Origin: Methanoculleus methanifontis
GTDB taxonomy: Archaea; Halobacteriota; Methanomicrobia; Methanomicrobiales; Methanoculleaceae
Length of the DNA: 64,000 nucleotides
Direction of reading: 5' to 3'
Assembly: GCF_030464365.1 (NCBI RefSeq)
Contig: NZ_VCYI01000006.1
Coordinates: 1-64,000, forward strand
The notes below the pieces were generated by a model. That model had not been told where the DNA came from. It saw nothing but the letters and a program-made list of their open reading frames with translations, and searched no databases. The position numbers and the translations under genes were made by a program. Positions 57,042 to 63,004 of the stretch are shown piece after piece. How positions within the stretch are numbered: position 1 is the first letter of the stretch; each line of letters opens with the position of its first letter.

Positions 57042-57057
57042 GAATCGGTGTTTGTCC
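57042..57057 (+). promoter_or_regulatory. 16-base motif shared with the duplicated promoter block
   Basis: GAATCGGTGTTTGTCC is identical to a stretch directly upstream of the TATA boxes in the two duplicated blocks (58557-58572 and 61959-61974). Here it is followed by CATAAAACTCATAAAA, a possible TATA region, and then the ATG at 57095. The position just upstream of TATA suggests an activator or BRE-adjacent binding site. Confidence 0.5.
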
Positions 57058-57094
57058 CATAAAACTCATAAAACACAGGTCACAACAATCCATT

Positions 57095-57547
57095 ATGACA
57101 TCGGCAAAGAGAAAATACGGGGCTTTTGTCCTGCTGCTCGCCGTTGCCTTCCTTGCCGTGCCTCCTGTATCGGCGAACGAAGGCGTCGGATACACGGTCC
57201 GCCCTTCAACATCGGATGACCCGGTGACGACGCTAGGGCTCTCCGACACCGTCGGCCAGGGCGAGACCAACAGGCACCAATTTTATGTCGGGAGTGAGGT
57301 CGCATACCTTGAAATATACCTGAACTGGGGTTCGACCTCCGATTCTCTGGCGTTGACCATCTACGCCCCATCGGGAAGCAGGATCGGCACGTTCCGCGAC
57401 AGTAGCGACGGAATGATGGATGGCAAGATTCATATCGACATTGACCCAGATGGCAATTATGTGGACCATGGAACCTGGACGTTCGATGTATACGGCGAGA
57501 AGGTATCATCAGAGAGATCATACACCCTCAACCTCTACCAATACTAG
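57095..57547 (+). CDS. Exported protein with YTVRPS motif
   Basis: 150 residues with a signal peptide (GAFVLLLAVAFLAVPPVSA, 8-26). The mature part begins NEGVGYTVRPSTSDDPVTTL and has a beta-rich body (SDSLALTIYAPSGSRIGTFR, GTWTFDVYGEKVSSERSYTL), perhaps a pre-peptidase-type beta-sandwich. The YTVRPS segment also occurs in the outer part of the regulator encoded just downstream. No family is recognised with confidence. Confidence 0.7.
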   Translation: MTSAKRKYGAFVLLLAVAFLAVPPVSANEGVGYTVRPSTSDDPVTTLGLSDTVGQGETNRHQFYVGSEVAYLEIYLNWGSTSDSLALTIYAPSGSRIGTFRDSSDGMMDGKIHIDIDPDGNYVDHGTWTFDVYGEKVSSERSYTLNLYQY

Positions 57548-57566
57548 GCCCGGTGGACATCTCCGG

Positions 57567-58355
57567 TTGCTTATCCTCTCGATCCTTTTTCTGGTGCTGC
57601 TGGTAGCGGTTGCCGATGCCACCGAATACACGGTCCGGCCCTCAAGAAACGTCGGGCAAGAGCCCGGCATGTCCATATCGGGCGAGAAGGTGCAGGAGGT
57701 AGACCCGATACCGCTCTGGCTCTTTCTGCTGCTGTCTGTATTTCCCCAGTTGACGGCAGCCCCGATCGAGACCCTCATTCCGTTGAAGGCCGCCGGATAC
57801 CTCGGGTACAAACGGATTTGCAAAGAAAACGCCCTTGAGAGTCCGCAGAGACGCAAGATCTTGAGATTTGTCAAGAGGAACCCGGGATTGTACTTCAGGG
57901 AGATATTGAGGCGTGTGCCTCTGACGCGAGGGACGCTTGATTACCATATGAAAACGATGGAATCCGTGGGTCTCTTAAAGACGATACTGGAAAGAGGGAG
58001 GGTTCATTATTTTGTTGCAGGTGCCCCATACTCGGCCGAGGAGGAGAACCTCATCATCGCACTGAGGAACGAGAGTCTGCGGAGAATTATAACAGAAATC
58101 TATCTCAATCAAGGCGCATGCAACGAAGAGATTGCAGAAAACGTCGAGTTATCAGGAACTACAGTTTATGAGCACCTACGATACTTGGAAGATCTGGGTG
58201 TTGTGATCGCAGAGAGGGATGGGCGATGTGTGCGGTATACTCTCGCCGAGAACTATTCTCGTATACTGATGGATATGCGGACCCGCCTTAAACCGGCCCG
58301 GAGCGCGGCAGATCCCGCTGGATGGATCAGCCCCGGGGGTGTTCCCTCCCGGTAG
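57567..58355 (+). CDS. Membrane-anchored regulator with two winged helices
   Basis: About 262 residues if started at TTG 57567 (GGTGG lies 10 bases upstream). TM1 is ILSILFLVLLVAVADA; a short outer segment follows with TEYTVRPSRNVGQEPGMS; TM2 is PLWLFLLLSVFPQL. The cytoplasmic part has two winged helices: RRKILRFVKRNPGLYFREIL with RGTLDYHMKTMESVGLLKTI, and ITEIYLNQGACNEEIAENVE with TTVYEHLRYLEDLGVVIAER. It may sense an external signal and control nearby exported-protein genes. It starts 19 bases after the stop of the exported protein, so the two are probably co-transcribed. Confidence 0.75.
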   Translation: MLILSILFLVLLVAVADATEYTVRPSRNVGQEPGMSISGEKVQEVDPIPLWLFLLLSVFPQLTAAPIETLIPLKAAGYLGYKRICKENALESPQRRKILRFVKRNPGLYFREILRRVPLTRGTLDYHMKTMESVGLLKTILERGRVHYFVAGAPYSAEEENLIIALRNESLRRIITEIYLNQGACNEEIAENVELSGTTVYEHLRYLEDLGVVIAERDGRCVRYTLAENYSRILMDMRTRLKPARSAADPAGWISPGGVPSR

Positions 58356-58450: not shown

Positions 58451-58748
58451 CGCACTCTGCCTGCACACCAGTCTTTGGGGAAAGCACCGGAGTACCAGGC
58501 TCTGATACCTGCACTCCCGCTCTTTTCCCTGGACTTGAGGCCTATGAACGCCCGGATGAATCGGTGTTTGTCCGAGAAACGGTATAAAGAAGAACAGCGA
58601 AGTCTCCATCGGTGATACCGCATGCGGTATCCCGCGGGGGCCGGGTATCTCGATTGGCGTCGTGCCCCGACCCCCACAGCGTGCCCGGAGGCTAATGGTG
58701 CTGTTGGCTATCATCAGAGATAGCCGTTGCGGTTCCACGGCCTCCCGG
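58451..58748 (+). repeat. Duplicated promoter-leader block, copy 1
   Basis: About 298 bases that recur at 61854-62150 with about 95 percent identity by eye and one indel. The block holds the 16-base motif (58557-58572), a TATA box (GGTATAAAG, 58581-58589) and a leader with several possible stems. It ends shortly before the start codon of the exported protein at 58776. Identity stops just before the ribosome binding site, so the block is a movable promoter and leader without coding sequence. Confidence 0.85.
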
Positions 58749-58775
58749 GTACGCATGAACGGAGGTAAAAACATC
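58611..58775 (+). promoter_or_regulatory. Structured leader RNA candidate, copy 1
   Basis: With transcription starting about 25 bases after the TATA box, the leader begins with the perfect palindrome GATACCGCATGCGGTATC (58614-58631). A GGGGGCCGGG stretch can pair with CCCGACCCCC with one mismatch. CCCGGAGGC (58684-58692) can pair with GCCTCCCGGG (58740-58749, one bulge) enclosing the 7-bp hairpin GGCTATC/GATAGCC (58706-58725). The CCTCC of the closing helix could instead pair with the GGAGG ribosome site at 58761-58765. This resembles a riboswitch-like switch; it is a prediction from reading only. Confidence 0.5.
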
Positions 58776-59237
58776 ATGAAACAGAAAAAAATGTTCGGAC
58801 CGTGTGCCGTTGCCGTCATCGGCCTGCTTCTCGTCTGTATGACGGTGGCGTCGGTCAGCGCTGAGAACGGGCTGCATGCCGTGGCCATTAATGGGGGCTC
58901 GCTCCTGATCAATGAGGACGGAGGCATCGACTGCACTGCTTCAGCTGATACGTACGCCGGCTCCTATATACCCGGGGTAACCTACCAGATCGACGTGGAT
59001 TGTGAATACAGGGATTATAATGAGGTAGTTGGACAAACGGCCCAATTCCGCTTGGAAGGGCCGGATGGTTCCGTAGCCACGAAGTCCATTTTCGACGTTC
59101 CGCTCATCAACAACAACTGGAAGGGCAAGCTGTCGGTACCTTTTACGCCCGCCAGTCCCGGTTCGTACCACTGGGAGATCACGTGCAGTGAAGGTTCCGA
59201 GAGCGCCTCGGCTCGCGGGGACCTCATCCTGGTGTAA
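58776..59237 (+). CDS. Small exported beta-rich protein
   Basis: 153 residues with a signal peptide (CAVAVIGLLLVCMTVASVSA, 10-29) and a mature part with NGGSLLINEDGGIDCTASAD, VTYQIDVDCEYRDY and SPGSYHWEITCSEGSESASA. Two or more Cys residues could form a disulfide. It looks like one Ig-like domain. No family recognised. GGAGGT is placed 10 bases before the ATG at 58776. Its promoter and leader are shared with the gene at 62174. Confidence 0.75.
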   Translation: MKQKKMFGPCAVAVIGLLLVCMTVASVSAENGLHAVAINGGSLLINEDGGIDCTASADTYAGSYIPGVTYQIDVDCEYRDYNEVVGQTAQFRLEGPDGSVATKSIFDVPLINNNWKGKLSVPFTPASPGSYHWEITCSEGSESASARGDLILV

Positions 59238-59249
59238 GGATAACCCACA

Positions 59250-60788
59250 ATGGCGGCAGATTCCTCCTCTTCCCAACTTTTTGGCCCCCTCATTGCCGGG
59301 ATCCCGATCATCGCCGCTTTGCTCCTCCTCGGCACGACGATACCTACCCCGGCCTGTGCCGAGGATATGAATTCATTAACCGAGATCATCGGGGTGCTCA
59401 CCGACTACCAGCGGGTCCCCGGCTTCGACGACGGACCGGCTGCCGACTACATCGCCGGGAGACTGGAGGAGGACGGATATGACGTACAGCAGGAGGTCTT
59501 TGCCGTCGAGACGGATGCGGGACCGGCCACGACCCAGAACGTCATCGGTATCAAGAAGGGCTCCGGGCCGGGGATCGTCGTCGTCTGCGCCCACTACGAT
59601 GTCTACGGTCCCGACTGCCCCGGAGCGGACGACAACGCCGCCGGGGTCGCCGTGATGCTTGAGGTCGCACGGGCGCTCCGGACGGAATCCCTGGACCGAT
59701 CGGTCTACTTCATCGCCTTCTCCGGCGAGGAGGTCGGGCTGCAGGGGAGCGCCGACTGGCTGGACCGCCACGCGGACCTTGCCGGGGATATCATCGCGGC
59801 CGTCAACCTCGACTGCGTTGCACGCGGCGACGAACTCCATGTCGATACACTCCCCCAGTACAGCTGGATACTGGACACCGTCCCCGAATCCCCGGCGATC
59901 AACCATCTGATTGGATCGAGTCTCGGGGGCGACCACTGGCGCTTCTGGGAGCACCATATCCCCGCCGCCCTGATAACCGACAACAGCGGCTACACCCTGC
60001 GGCATACCCCGGACGATACCCCCGAGACCCTGAACCTCTCCCTGGCGGCGTCCTGCACCGAAGCGGTGACCGGCATGGTCCGGACCCTTGCCGCCGCAGA
60101 CGACACGACGCCCCCGGCGGTGGAAGGGTCGGTCGAGGAGGACGGGACGATCCGGTACGCCGTCTCCGAACCCGCGGTGACGCACCTCATCGTCGACGGG
60201 ACCGACTTTGGCGCCCTCACATCAGGGCAGGTCACCCTCCCGCCGGGCCAGCATAGCGTCCGGGTCATTGCCTACGATGCGGCCGGGAACCGGGGCGTCC
60301 TGGACCTGGAGGCCGACGTGCCTGGTACCGGCCGCGACACCCCCGGGTCCGACCATCAGCCGGGGGGTATCAGCATCCCCTGGAAGCGGACGGAAGAAGA
60401 CCGCGAGAAGTATGGAATGCAGCATTATGGCACCCCGTTTGTCTCCCTCTCCTACGACGGCCCGCGAGAGGAAGACCCAGAGACCCGAGTCGACGGCTAC
60501 GTCGACGGTATCTGGATCACCGGGCTTGAGGGGGGGCATACCATTATCCATGCCTCGGGGCTCCACCGCTACGAGGTGGCGGCGGTCGCTGGCGGGGATG
60601 TCGTAGGGTATGACGAGACGACGTATCTCGTCAGACGATTGTATGACGACCCTATGCGTTACTACATCCAGAACAGCGCTGTGCGGGAGGCACAAGCCCC
60701 TGAGGACCCGCTCCCCCTGGTCCCGGTCGCATGCACGGTCGCCGCCTCGCTCCTTGCCGTCGGGTACCTCATCTCGCGGAGGCGGTAG
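59250..60788 (+). CDS. Exported M28-family metallopeptidase with C-terminal membrane anchor
   Basis: 512 residues. A hydrophobic N-terminus (IAGIPIIAALLLLGTTIPTP) directs export. The peptidase domain has VVVCAHYDVYG, PGADDNAAGVAVMLEVARAL, FIAFSGEEVGLQGSADWL and AVNLDCVARGDEL, with the His/Asp/Glu zinc ligands of M28 aminopeptidases. A beta domain follows (VEGSVEEDGTIRYAVSEPAV) and a final hydrophobic helix (VPVACTVAASLLAVGYLI) ends in SRRR. It lies 12 bases after the small exported protein, so the two are likely co-expressed and may act on peptides at the surface. Confidence 0.9.
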   Translation: MAADSSSSQLFGPLIAGIPIIAALLLLGTTIPTPACAEDMNSLTEIIGVLTDYQRVPGFDDGPAADYIAGRLEEDGYDVQQEVFAVETDAGPATTQNVIGIKKGSGPGIVVVCAHYDVYGPDCPGADDNAAGVAVMLEVARALRTESLDRSVYFIAFSGEEVGLQGSADWLDRHADLAGDIIAAVNLDCVARGDELHVDTLPQYSWILDTVPESPAINHLIGSSLGGDHWRFWEHHIPAALITDNSGYTLRHTPDDTPETLNLSLAASCTEAVTGMVRTLAAADDTTPPAVEGSVEEDGTIRYAVSEPAVTHLIVDGTDFGALTSGQVTLPPGQHSVRVIAYDAAGNRGVLDLEADVPGTGRDTPGSDHQPGGISIPWKRTEEDREKYGMQHYGTPFVSLSYDGPREEDPETRVDGYVDGIWITGLEGGHTIIHASGLHRYEVAAVAGGDVVGYDETTYLVRRLYDDPMRYYIQNSAVREAQAPEDPLPLVPVACTVAASLLAVGYLISRRR

Positions 60789-60827
60789 GCAGAATGAACG
60801 ATCATATGACACACAAGAGGTAATGAT

Positions 60828-61829
60828 ATGGCAGCAGAACGAGTCTTCACCGTGGCCGGGAAGGAATTCACCGACCACCTCACCAGCCGGAAATTCCTGG
60901 TGATCCTTGCGTTGCTCCTGATGTTTGCCCTGCTCGGCATGCACCAGGGGATCGACCAGTACAACAAGAACCTCGAGTCGTATAACCAGCAGTTACAGGA
61001 AGCGGGAGATTCCGCAGGACCCGGCATGATGCCTGAGCGGCCGTCGATCCTCTCCGTCTTCGGGTATCTGGTCAGCTCCCTGGTGCCGTTCGGAGGAATG
61101 CTCGCGATCGCGACCGGGTTTGACCTGATATCAAAGGAGAAGGAGTCCCGGTCGCTCAAAACCCTCCTCGCACACCCGGTCTACCGGGACGAGGTCATCA
61201 ACGGCAAGGCGCTCGGCGGGGTTGCGGCTCTCGGGGTTGCCCTCGTCACCGCGTTCGCTCTCACTCTTGCCGTGCTCCTCGTCTGCTCGATCGTGCCGAC
61301 GGCGGGCGAGGTTGCCGCTATCGGGGTCATTGGGTTCGCCTCGCTCCTCTACCTGCTGGCGTTCTTCGCCCTCGCTCTCGCCCTCTCGGTCGTCACAAAG
61401 GAGAGCGGGCATGCGGTGATCTACGGCCTGGCACTCTTCTTCGCTATCGCCTTCCTGCTGCCGGTCTTCGGGACGGCTCTTGGGGATGTGGTCGCGGGCG
61501 ACCCGCCGCAGAGACCAGAGATGCCGGTGACCGTGGACGGGCGTCCGGTTGATGAAGCGGTATGGATGGCATACGAGGAGGAGTGCAGGCAGCATACCGG
61601 GGAGATGGAAGAATACCGGGGCAGACGACAGGTGGTCACTGATACGGTCAACCTCTTCTCCCCAATAGTGAGTTATCATGCGGTGGTCTGGCCGGTCGCC
61701 GATCCTTCGGGTATGCCACTGGAAGATGCCGAAGACCAGATCTGGCGGGGTGTTGCGGCGTTGATCGTCTTCCCGTCGGTCTTCTTCGCCGCCGCGTACG
61801 GGAAGTTCATGCGGATGGATATCCGGTGA
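60828..61829 (+). CDS. ABC-2 type permease, no ATPase gene beside it
   Basis: 333 residues. It begins ERVFTVAGKEFTDHLTSRKF, the usual start of ABC-2 membrane proteins, with TM segments at VILALLLMFALLGM, VFGYLVSSLVPFGGMLAIAT, GVALVTAFALTLAVLLV, LLYLLAFFALALALSVV and VIYGLALFFAIAFLLPVFG. The conserved KEKESRSLKTLLAHPVYRDE loop is present. It follows the M28 gene by 39 bases. The partner ATPase must come from elsewhere, perhaps beyond the window. Confidence 0.85.
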   Translation: MAAERVFTVAGKEFTDHLTSRKFLVILALLLMFALLGMHQGIDQYNKNLESYNQQLQEAGDSAGPGMMPERPSILSVFGYLVSSLVPFGGMLAIATGFDLISKEKESRSLKTLLAHPVYRDEVINGKALGGVAALGVALVTAFALTLAVLLVCSIVPTAGEVAAIGVIGFASLLYLLAFFALALALSVVTKESGHAVIYGLALFFAIAFLLPVFGTALGDVVAGDPPQRPEMPVTVDGRPVDEAVWMAYEEECRQHTGEMEEYRGRRQVVTDTVNLFSPIVSYHAVVWPVADPSGMPLEDAEDQIWRGVAALIVFPSVFFAAAYGKFMRMDIR

Positions 61830-61853: not shown

Positions 61854-62150
61854 CGCACTCTGCCTGCACCTGGACCCCGGGGAAAGCACTGGAGTATCAG
61901 GCTCTGATACCTGCACTCCCGCTCTTTTCCCTGGACTTGAGGCCTATGAACGCCCGGATGAATCGGTGTTTGTCCGAGAAACGGTATAAAGAAGAACAGC
62001 GAAGTCTCCATCGGTGATACCGCACGCGGTATCCCGCGGGAGCCGGGTGTCTCGATTGGCGTCGTGCCCCGGCCCCCACCGCGTGCCCGGAGGCTAATGG
62101 TGCTGTTGGCTATCATCAGAGATAGCCGTTGCGGTTCCACGGCCTCCCGG
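61854..62150 (+). repeat. Duplicated promoter-leader block, copy 2
   Basis: This is the second copy of the block at 58451-58748. It has the same 16-base motif (61959-61974), a TATA box (GGTATAAAG, 61983-61991) and the same order of stems. Differences are few and scattered, including changes inside predicted stems. The copy begins right after the ABC-2 permease gene and ends 24 bases before the ATG at 62174. Confidence 0.85.
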
Positions 62151-62173
62151 AGCACGCATCGAGGTGTGGAACC
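62016..62173 (+). promoter_or_regulatory. Structured leader RNA candidate, copy 2
   Basis: The stems are as in copy 1. The first palindrome is GATACCGCACGCGGTATC (62016-62033) with one central change. GAGCCGGG pairs with CCCGGCCC, where copy 1 has a C-A mismatch but this copy restores C-G. CCCGGAGGC (62086-62094) pairs with GCCTCCCGG (62142-62150) around GGCTATC/GATAGCC (62108-62127). The ribosome site GAGGTG (62161-62166) can pair with CCTC of the closing helix. Kept pairing with a partly different ribosome site supports, but does not prove, an RNA switch. Confidence 0.45.
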
Positions 62174-63004
62174 ATGAAACCAAAATTCCTTTCCGGAATC
62201 GGCGCAATGTTTGCGGCGCTGATGATCGCAGGCGCAGCCTTCGTGCTGGCGGTGGGTGCCGAGGCAGTTCTCTCTACGAGTACTGCTCAGGAAACGCTGC
62301 GAATTGCCCCCAATAGTTCAGGCATGTCTGAAGATGAATTTATGGCCTACGCCGGGAGAATGGAGCAGAAATACGGTTCGGAGGCCGTGAGCGCATTAAG
62401 ACTGCACATCCCTGACGAAACCCGCGGTCCATCTCAGGGGGCGGGTGCGACGCCGAATATCCGGTATGTGTCGGCATGGAGCGGCAGTCTGGAGATCAGG
62501 AACAATGACGGCGTGGTCCTGGCAGATTCCGACAATGCACTGGTTCTCTATGCGTTAGACCTGACCGACGAGCAGGGCAGAGATCATTACTACTGGTGGC
62601 AGTGGGGCGCTGCGAAAAACCGCGAGGATACCTGGATAGGCGACGACTCAAACCTTCGGAACTTTTGGAGCCGGGTAGAGTTCGAAAATTCCACATCAAA
62701 CTTGCTATGGTACGCCCCCGATGGGGATATGCGTGGTGTTGAAAATACAGTTACATTACGGTTCGGACTCGAGTTTTCGGGTCCGGATTGCCACAACATC
62801 AGCAAGGACTTCATCCTGCACCAGGGCAAGATCAGGCCGAAACCGGGTGAATGCCGGGTGGGAAACGCCGGGAAGTATGCGGTTGACTGGGTTGGAAGTT
62901 ATGAAGGAACACAGTCTATCTATGGTATCTGCGAAGAGAGGCGGCAGGACAGCGCGGGTTCGGCAGTTCTATGGACATATTGCCTGACGGCAAGTCAGTT
63001 TTAG
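62174..63004 (+). CDS. Exported protein of unknown family
   Basis: About 276 residues with a signal peptide or anchor (AALMIAGAAFVLAVGAEAV, about 13-31). The mature part has SEDEFMAYAGRMEQKYGSEA, VSAWSGSLEIRNNDGVVLAD and YYWWQWGAAKNREDTWIGDD. It may be a secreted adhesion or degradative protein but has no motif I recognise. GAGGTG lies 8 bases before the ATG at 62174. It is expressed from copy 2 of the duplicated promoter-leader block. Confidence 0.7.
   Translation: MKPKFLSGIGAMFAALMIAGAAFVLAVGAEAVLSTSTAQETLRIAPNSSGMSEDEFMAYAGRMEQKYGSEAVSALRLHIPDETRGPSQGAGATPNIRYVSAWSGSLEIRNNDGVVLADSDNALVLYALDLTDEQGRDHYYWWQWGAAKNREDTWIGDDSNLRNFWSRVEFENSTSNLLWYAPDGDMRGVENTVTLRFGLEFSGPDCHNISKDFILHQGKIRPKPGECRVGNAGKYAVDWVGSYEGTQSIYGICEERRQDSAGSAVLWTYCLTASQF

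Follow-up and report, generated by a model that had tools for sequence, protein, structure and literature searches.

Layout and predicted fold of the leader

The window, i.e. the whole 64,000-nucleotide stretch of Methanoculleus methanifontis DNA that was analysed (positions 1 to 64,000 of contig NZ_VCYI01000006.1, assembly GCF_030464365.1), carries two copies of a structured leader, each directly before a gene for a protein of exported type. The features are, in window coordinates:

57045..57063, + strand: promoter box with 1 mismatch, before the neighbouring exported-protein/helix-turn-helix operon
58561..58579, + strand: promoter box TCGRTGNTTGNCNNAGAAA, 19 bp, upstream of the TATA box
58583..58588, + strand: TATA box TATAAA, predicting a transcript start near 58608-58612
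58610..58634, + strand: hairpin P1 (CGG.GATACCG/CGGTATC.CCG)
58634..58677, + strand: hairpin P2 (GGGGGCCGGG.../CCCCGACCCCC)
58679..58754, + strand: long hairpin P3, its closing helix formed by 58684-58692 with 58740-58749
58761..58765, + strand: Shine-Dalgarno sequence GGAGG, single-stranded in the minimum-energy fold and lying 10 nt upstream of the ATG at 58776
58776..59237, + strand: first downstream gene (153 aa), with an N-terminal export-signal-like stretch and a weak filamin-repeat match below the Pfam cut-off
61963..61981, + strand: promoter box of the second copy, from the box search of the genome
62010..62160, + strand: second leader copy, P1-P2-P3 (covariance-model match 1.3e-40; fold z -5.2)
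62161..62166, + strand: Shine-Dalgarno sequence GAGGTG of the second copy
62174..63004, + strand: exported-type gene behind the second copy (276 aa), unrelated to the first and without a Pfam match

The first leader is about 150 nt long and comprises three hairpins (58610-58754), the last of which ends just before the ribosome site. A first-pass annotation of this DNA had described the pairing of CCCGGAGGC with GCCTCCCGGG around a 7-bp hairpin, and this is present exactly as claimed, with the arms at 58684-58692 and 58740-58749 and the hairpin GGCTATC/GATAGCC between them; the feature so described is real, although it covers just the 3' half of the element, namely P3. Folding energies are very low, both for the P3 region (58679-58778, -51.8 kcal/mol, z -6.2, with 0 of 200 shuffles that low) and for the whole leader (58611-58778, -86.9 kcal/mol, z -5.3 against shuffles).

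From the TATA box, the transcript probably starts at about 58610, within a few bases of P1. The spacing from TATA to P1 is constant across copies, with TATATA occupying that position in Methanofollis, and given this conserved TATA position a start downstream of the P3 structure is unlikely. The promoter box had 15 matches in the own genome compared to 1 for the reversed control (at most 2 mismatches). It is conserved upstream of Methanoculleus leaders, and is common to the leader promoters and to neighbouring operons.

The two window copies form a 272-nt duplicate that includes the promoter and is 97% identical, and a repeat search of the window at the set threshold returned only these two direct copies. 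That the second copy keeps the helices, as annotated, is correct, but in so close a duplicate this is weak evidence by itself. Six type-1 copies (the type found in the window) are present in the own genome. A relative of the first gene lies on contig C1, in a second leader cluster, and its leader is only about 80% identical. Since the nearly identical window leaders precede unrelated genes while this relative has a more divergent one, leaders appear to have been homogenised or moved within the cluster independently of the gene behind. Between the window copies (59250-61829) lie genes that by sequence appearance encode an M28-type peptidase and an ABC-2 type permease, and the C1 cluster holds a similar gene set.

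Covariation and distribution of type-1 leaders

RNAalifold on a MAFFT alignment gave a poor consensus of 19 pairs and was not used for the fold; the three-hairpin consensus was instead obtained from averaged per-sequence base-pair probabilities. In a sequence-only alignment of 38 distinct type-1 leaders, 89.3% of cells are paired, compared to 41-48% for slid partners. Cells changed on both sides number 34, against 16.7 in shuffles (0/500), and both-side changes, pair percentage and covariation score all lie above all or nearly all of 500 shuffles. Extending the set to 69 leaders from two families, in an alignment fitted to the covariance model, both-side change was seen in 39 of 54 pairs (27.7 shuffled, 0/500) and in 194 cells (66 shuffled, 0/500). 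Both-side changes affect 6 of the 10 pairs of P1 in the smaller set and 7 of 10 in the larger, as well as 12 of the 14 pairs of P2 (alignment A6). Covariation across homologous leaders, whose absence the first-pass annotation had named beforehand as refuting its proposal, was thus found in both sets; in type 1 its excess over shuffles is moderate because the copies are similar to each other. G-U pairs are often conserved in both sets and G-C to G-U changes are frequent. Most positions that are conserved in Methanoculleus as well as in Methanofollis fall in the inner part of P3, where G-U pairs are plentiful, and between the two families some of the sequence of P3 and P1 has been conserved.

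Type 1 is present in 27 of 35 Methanoculleus genomes and in nine genomes of Methanofollis, a member of another family, where the covariance model gave full-length matches down to E 6e-20. In the phylum sample the model matched the same genera only, plus two marginal matches near 6e-4 that were taken as chance. The leaders share one orientation relative to the genes, at a constant distance from TATA box and start codon.

Could this be repeated DNA and not RNA, either inverted-repeat operators for a protein or a repeat spread by gene conversion? P1 is a near-perfect palindrome adjoining the promoter, shortened copies exist, and the 97% identity of window copies with unrelated genes suggests gene conversion or recent duplication. 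Nevertheless, the G-U pairs are retained on one strand, which argues for RNA rather than a DNA palindrome. The single orientation and constant distances also speak against repeated DNA, as does a search of viral contigs with the exact conserved-core pattern, in which none was found, and palindromic operators would leave P2 and P3 unexplained. For a mobile repeat such as a MITE, which may lie either way round to the genes, the constant orientation is likewise unfavourable. We therefore hold the repeated-DNA explanation to be very unlikely.

Some copies depart from the common layout. The apical part of P3 is inverted in leader L086 (~1978-2187; G011:C8:394267) relative to close relatives, and the hairpin can still form. 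Copies L006/L074 (G000:C1:22932), L085, L082 and L032 are shortened, having kept promoter, P1 and P2 with P3 absent, and in two other genomes P3-less copies run directly into a signal-peptide-like gene that has a ribosome site of its own. Parts of the leader may act separately, given the few copies that lack P3 or a clear gene after them.

Genes behind the leaders

In 82 type-1 copies the distance from P1 to a start codon is 154-176 nt, and most of these starts have a ribosome site; a few copies show no obvious start codon in this range. A strongly hydrophobic N-terminal stretch is encoded by 72 of 79 genes compared to 7 of 43 window ORFs, a count somewhat inflated by the inclusion of hydrophobicity in the start-codon score. 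With their first 30 residues removed, the encoded proteins fall into about 20-22 unrelated clusters, few of which are known to Pfam (propeller repeats, a C39-like peptidase, DUF6345, DUF4901/PepSY and Ig-like domains). The common factor is therefore export and not a pathway.

A covariation-supported fold thus lies between a predicted promoter and the start codon of a protein gene, as is characteristic of a structured leader. It is highly improbable that the element is an independent small RNA acting in trans, with the mRNA arising by read-through. Such an RNA would be consistent with the element having its own promoter and with the few copies lacking a start codon at the usual distance, but not with the 82 copies that have one, nor with the aligned leaders, where a U-run is absent between P3 and the gene.

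A second leader type

Tracing the other genomic sites of the promoter box led to a second type of leader, which has the layout, ribosome site and closing helix (CCCGGAGGC/GCCTCCGGG) of type 1 and a different inner P3. Among 26 aligned type-2 leaders 86.2% of cells are paired, compared to 36-52% in slid controls, and 41 cells are changed on both sides (20.9 shuffled, 0/500); the number of pairs with both-side change and of further pair types was not above shuffles. Both types retain the GGAGG/CCUCC closing helix, which in type 2 varies less than any other helix and, like the type-2 inner motif, is almost invariant. The type-2 model matched 42 of 232 genomes of the order, in 9 of 40 genera and four families. 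For the matches outside the genus that were checked, folding into these hairpins is mostly possible, and most of them are closely followed by a gene whose start resembles an export signal. Taking both types together, 33 of 35 Methanoculleus genomes carry a leader. In one type-2 leader, L195 (G004:C17:7123-7376), an internal duplication covers the last part of P2 and the first part of P3.

This conservation bears on the main rival explanation, in which the leader is a passive stabiliser, a stable 5'-end hairpin and structured leader protecting the mRNA from decay. The 5' leader of the E. coli ompA gene is such a case, where a stable hairpin stabilises the mRNA of an exported protein. The Methanoculleus leader likewise has a stable hairpin at the 5' end of exported-protein mRNAs, P1 starting no more than a few bases from where transcription is predicted to begin, and its folds are very stable. 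However, ompA is one gene of a bacterium, whereas the Methanoculleus leader is common to unrelated genes. A stabiliser also needs no sequence conservation, in contrast to the parts of P3 and P1 that are conserved across two families and the nearly invariant inner motif of type 2. We consider passive stabilisation conceivable, though doubtful. The two types, alike in frame and different in inner P3, point to a pair of domains for sensing or binding that are carried by one frame.

Accessibility of the ribosome site

The first-pass annotation had gone on to propose mutually exclusive helices that hide or free the ribosome site, as in a riboswitch or RNA thermometer: CCUCC of the P3 3' arm would pair either with the ribosome site (OFF) or with GGAGG of the P3 5' arm (ON), the choice being made by a ligand or heat. 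The complementarity on which this rests does exist, albeit of a kind generic for any Shine-Dalgarno sequence, and it is in keeping with the proposal that the closing helix is kept in both types and that the site is predicted to be sequestered in a minority of copies, e.g. the GTTCCTCC/GGAGGAAC class. The predicted energetics do not agree with it. In copy 1 the site is single-stranded in the best fold, and forced pairing of CCUCC with the site carries a penalty at 37 °C of 17.0 kcal/mol for copy 1 and 10.4 kcal/mol for copy 2. The penalty is still 11.0 and 6.1 kcal/mol, respectively, at 70 °C. The two comparably stable, exclusive folds expected of a riboswitch were thus not found in the window copies, where the alternative is 10-17 kcal/mol less stable. 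With the site unpaired in copy 1 already at 37 °C and the alternative disfavoured from 25 to 70 °C, the modelled folds also make an RNA thermometer unlikely.

Across the family, the mean probability of site-arm pairing is 0.18 for 82 type-1 leaders and 0.08 for type 2, and this pairing dominates in about a dozen of the 82. Predicted accessibility of the ribosome site in these 82 leaders is partial, at a mean of 0.43 unpaired. Arms did not pair better with their own sites than with exchanged ones, 783 of 5000 shuffles doing equally well, in a comparison of low power as ribosome sites are alike. Taken with the energetics, this leaves the switch as annotated unlikely. The leader may still sense a ligand or protein, and because GGAGG/CCUCC persists in the closing helix of both types a regulated version may yet operate, in which a factor could open or lock P3, or the choice could be made during transcription. 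In a type-1 subclass (leaders L057, L052 and L026) there is strong complementarity between the P3 3' arm and the ribosome site of the same leader, for example GTTCCTCC to GGAGGAAC.

Relation to known leaders and proposed role

A search of Rfam (release 15) gave no family at the gathering threshold nor at E up to 5, and a search of the available literature found no described leader in Methanoculleus or Methanofollis. In archaea, the known structured leaders with a regulatory role are few. A general likeness is to translational riboswitches, which also place a folded leader of 100-200 nt directly upstream of the ribosome site of several genes and share the conserved inner motif and the anti-Shine-Dalgarno sequence in the closing helix. 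They differ in that the site-hiding alternative is strongly disfavoured in the window copies, and in that the genes here represent many unrelated exported-protein families and not a metabolic pathway. Among archaeal 5' leaders, to which the Methanoculleus leader also belongs, a structure read by a protein has been proposed to control translation for the L7Ae kink-turn leader (PMC6298567) and ribosomal-protein leaders (PMC7247131), which stand before the gene or operon of the protein that binds them. Without its protein, the L7Ae leader has no structure and hides the ribosome site (PMC6298567). In contrast, the Methanoculleus leader is predicted to be very stable alone and is common to many genes, and those behind the Methanoculleus and Methanofollis leaders encode exported proteins, not L7Ae.

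The leader looks to be a genuine RNA family that has not been described before. Its general kind is known, but the breadth of its targets and the presence of two inner domains on one frame make it unusual. We think it probable that a cis-acting mRNA leader of about 150 nt with three hairpins, together with the promoter box, marks exported-protein genes in Methanomicrobiales. Under this interpretation, RNA would be transcribed from about 58610 and adopt by default a fold in which P3 is closed. As its closing helix would hold CCUCC away from the ribosome site, the default state should be competent for translation. Most likely, a protein or small molecule would then recognise the conserved inner P3, or P1-P2, and recognition may change the translation or mRNA lifetime of all leader genes together. 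More tentatively, and with less confidence, we postulate a modular RNA in which the P1/P2 and closing-helix frame accepts either of two inner domains, and by which Methanomicrobiales would globally switch a large set of unrelated exported proteins at the post-transcriptional level.

With well over a hundred copies of two types, before many unrelated exported proteins, the leader family would represent a novel sort of regulon mark in these methanogens. It would also offer a direct way into the control of their surface and secreted proteins, the majority of which are without known function.

Promoter box outside the leaders

The promoter box also occurs without a leader. In the window it precedes the operon at 57420-58355, which encodes a small exported protein and a winged-helix-like regulator, the latter being a candidate controller of the leader gene set. 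Contig C1 holds a paralogous exported-protein/regulator pair, also with the box, and a further box without leader lies before an ABC transporter ATPase gene (L163, G000:C28:121720).
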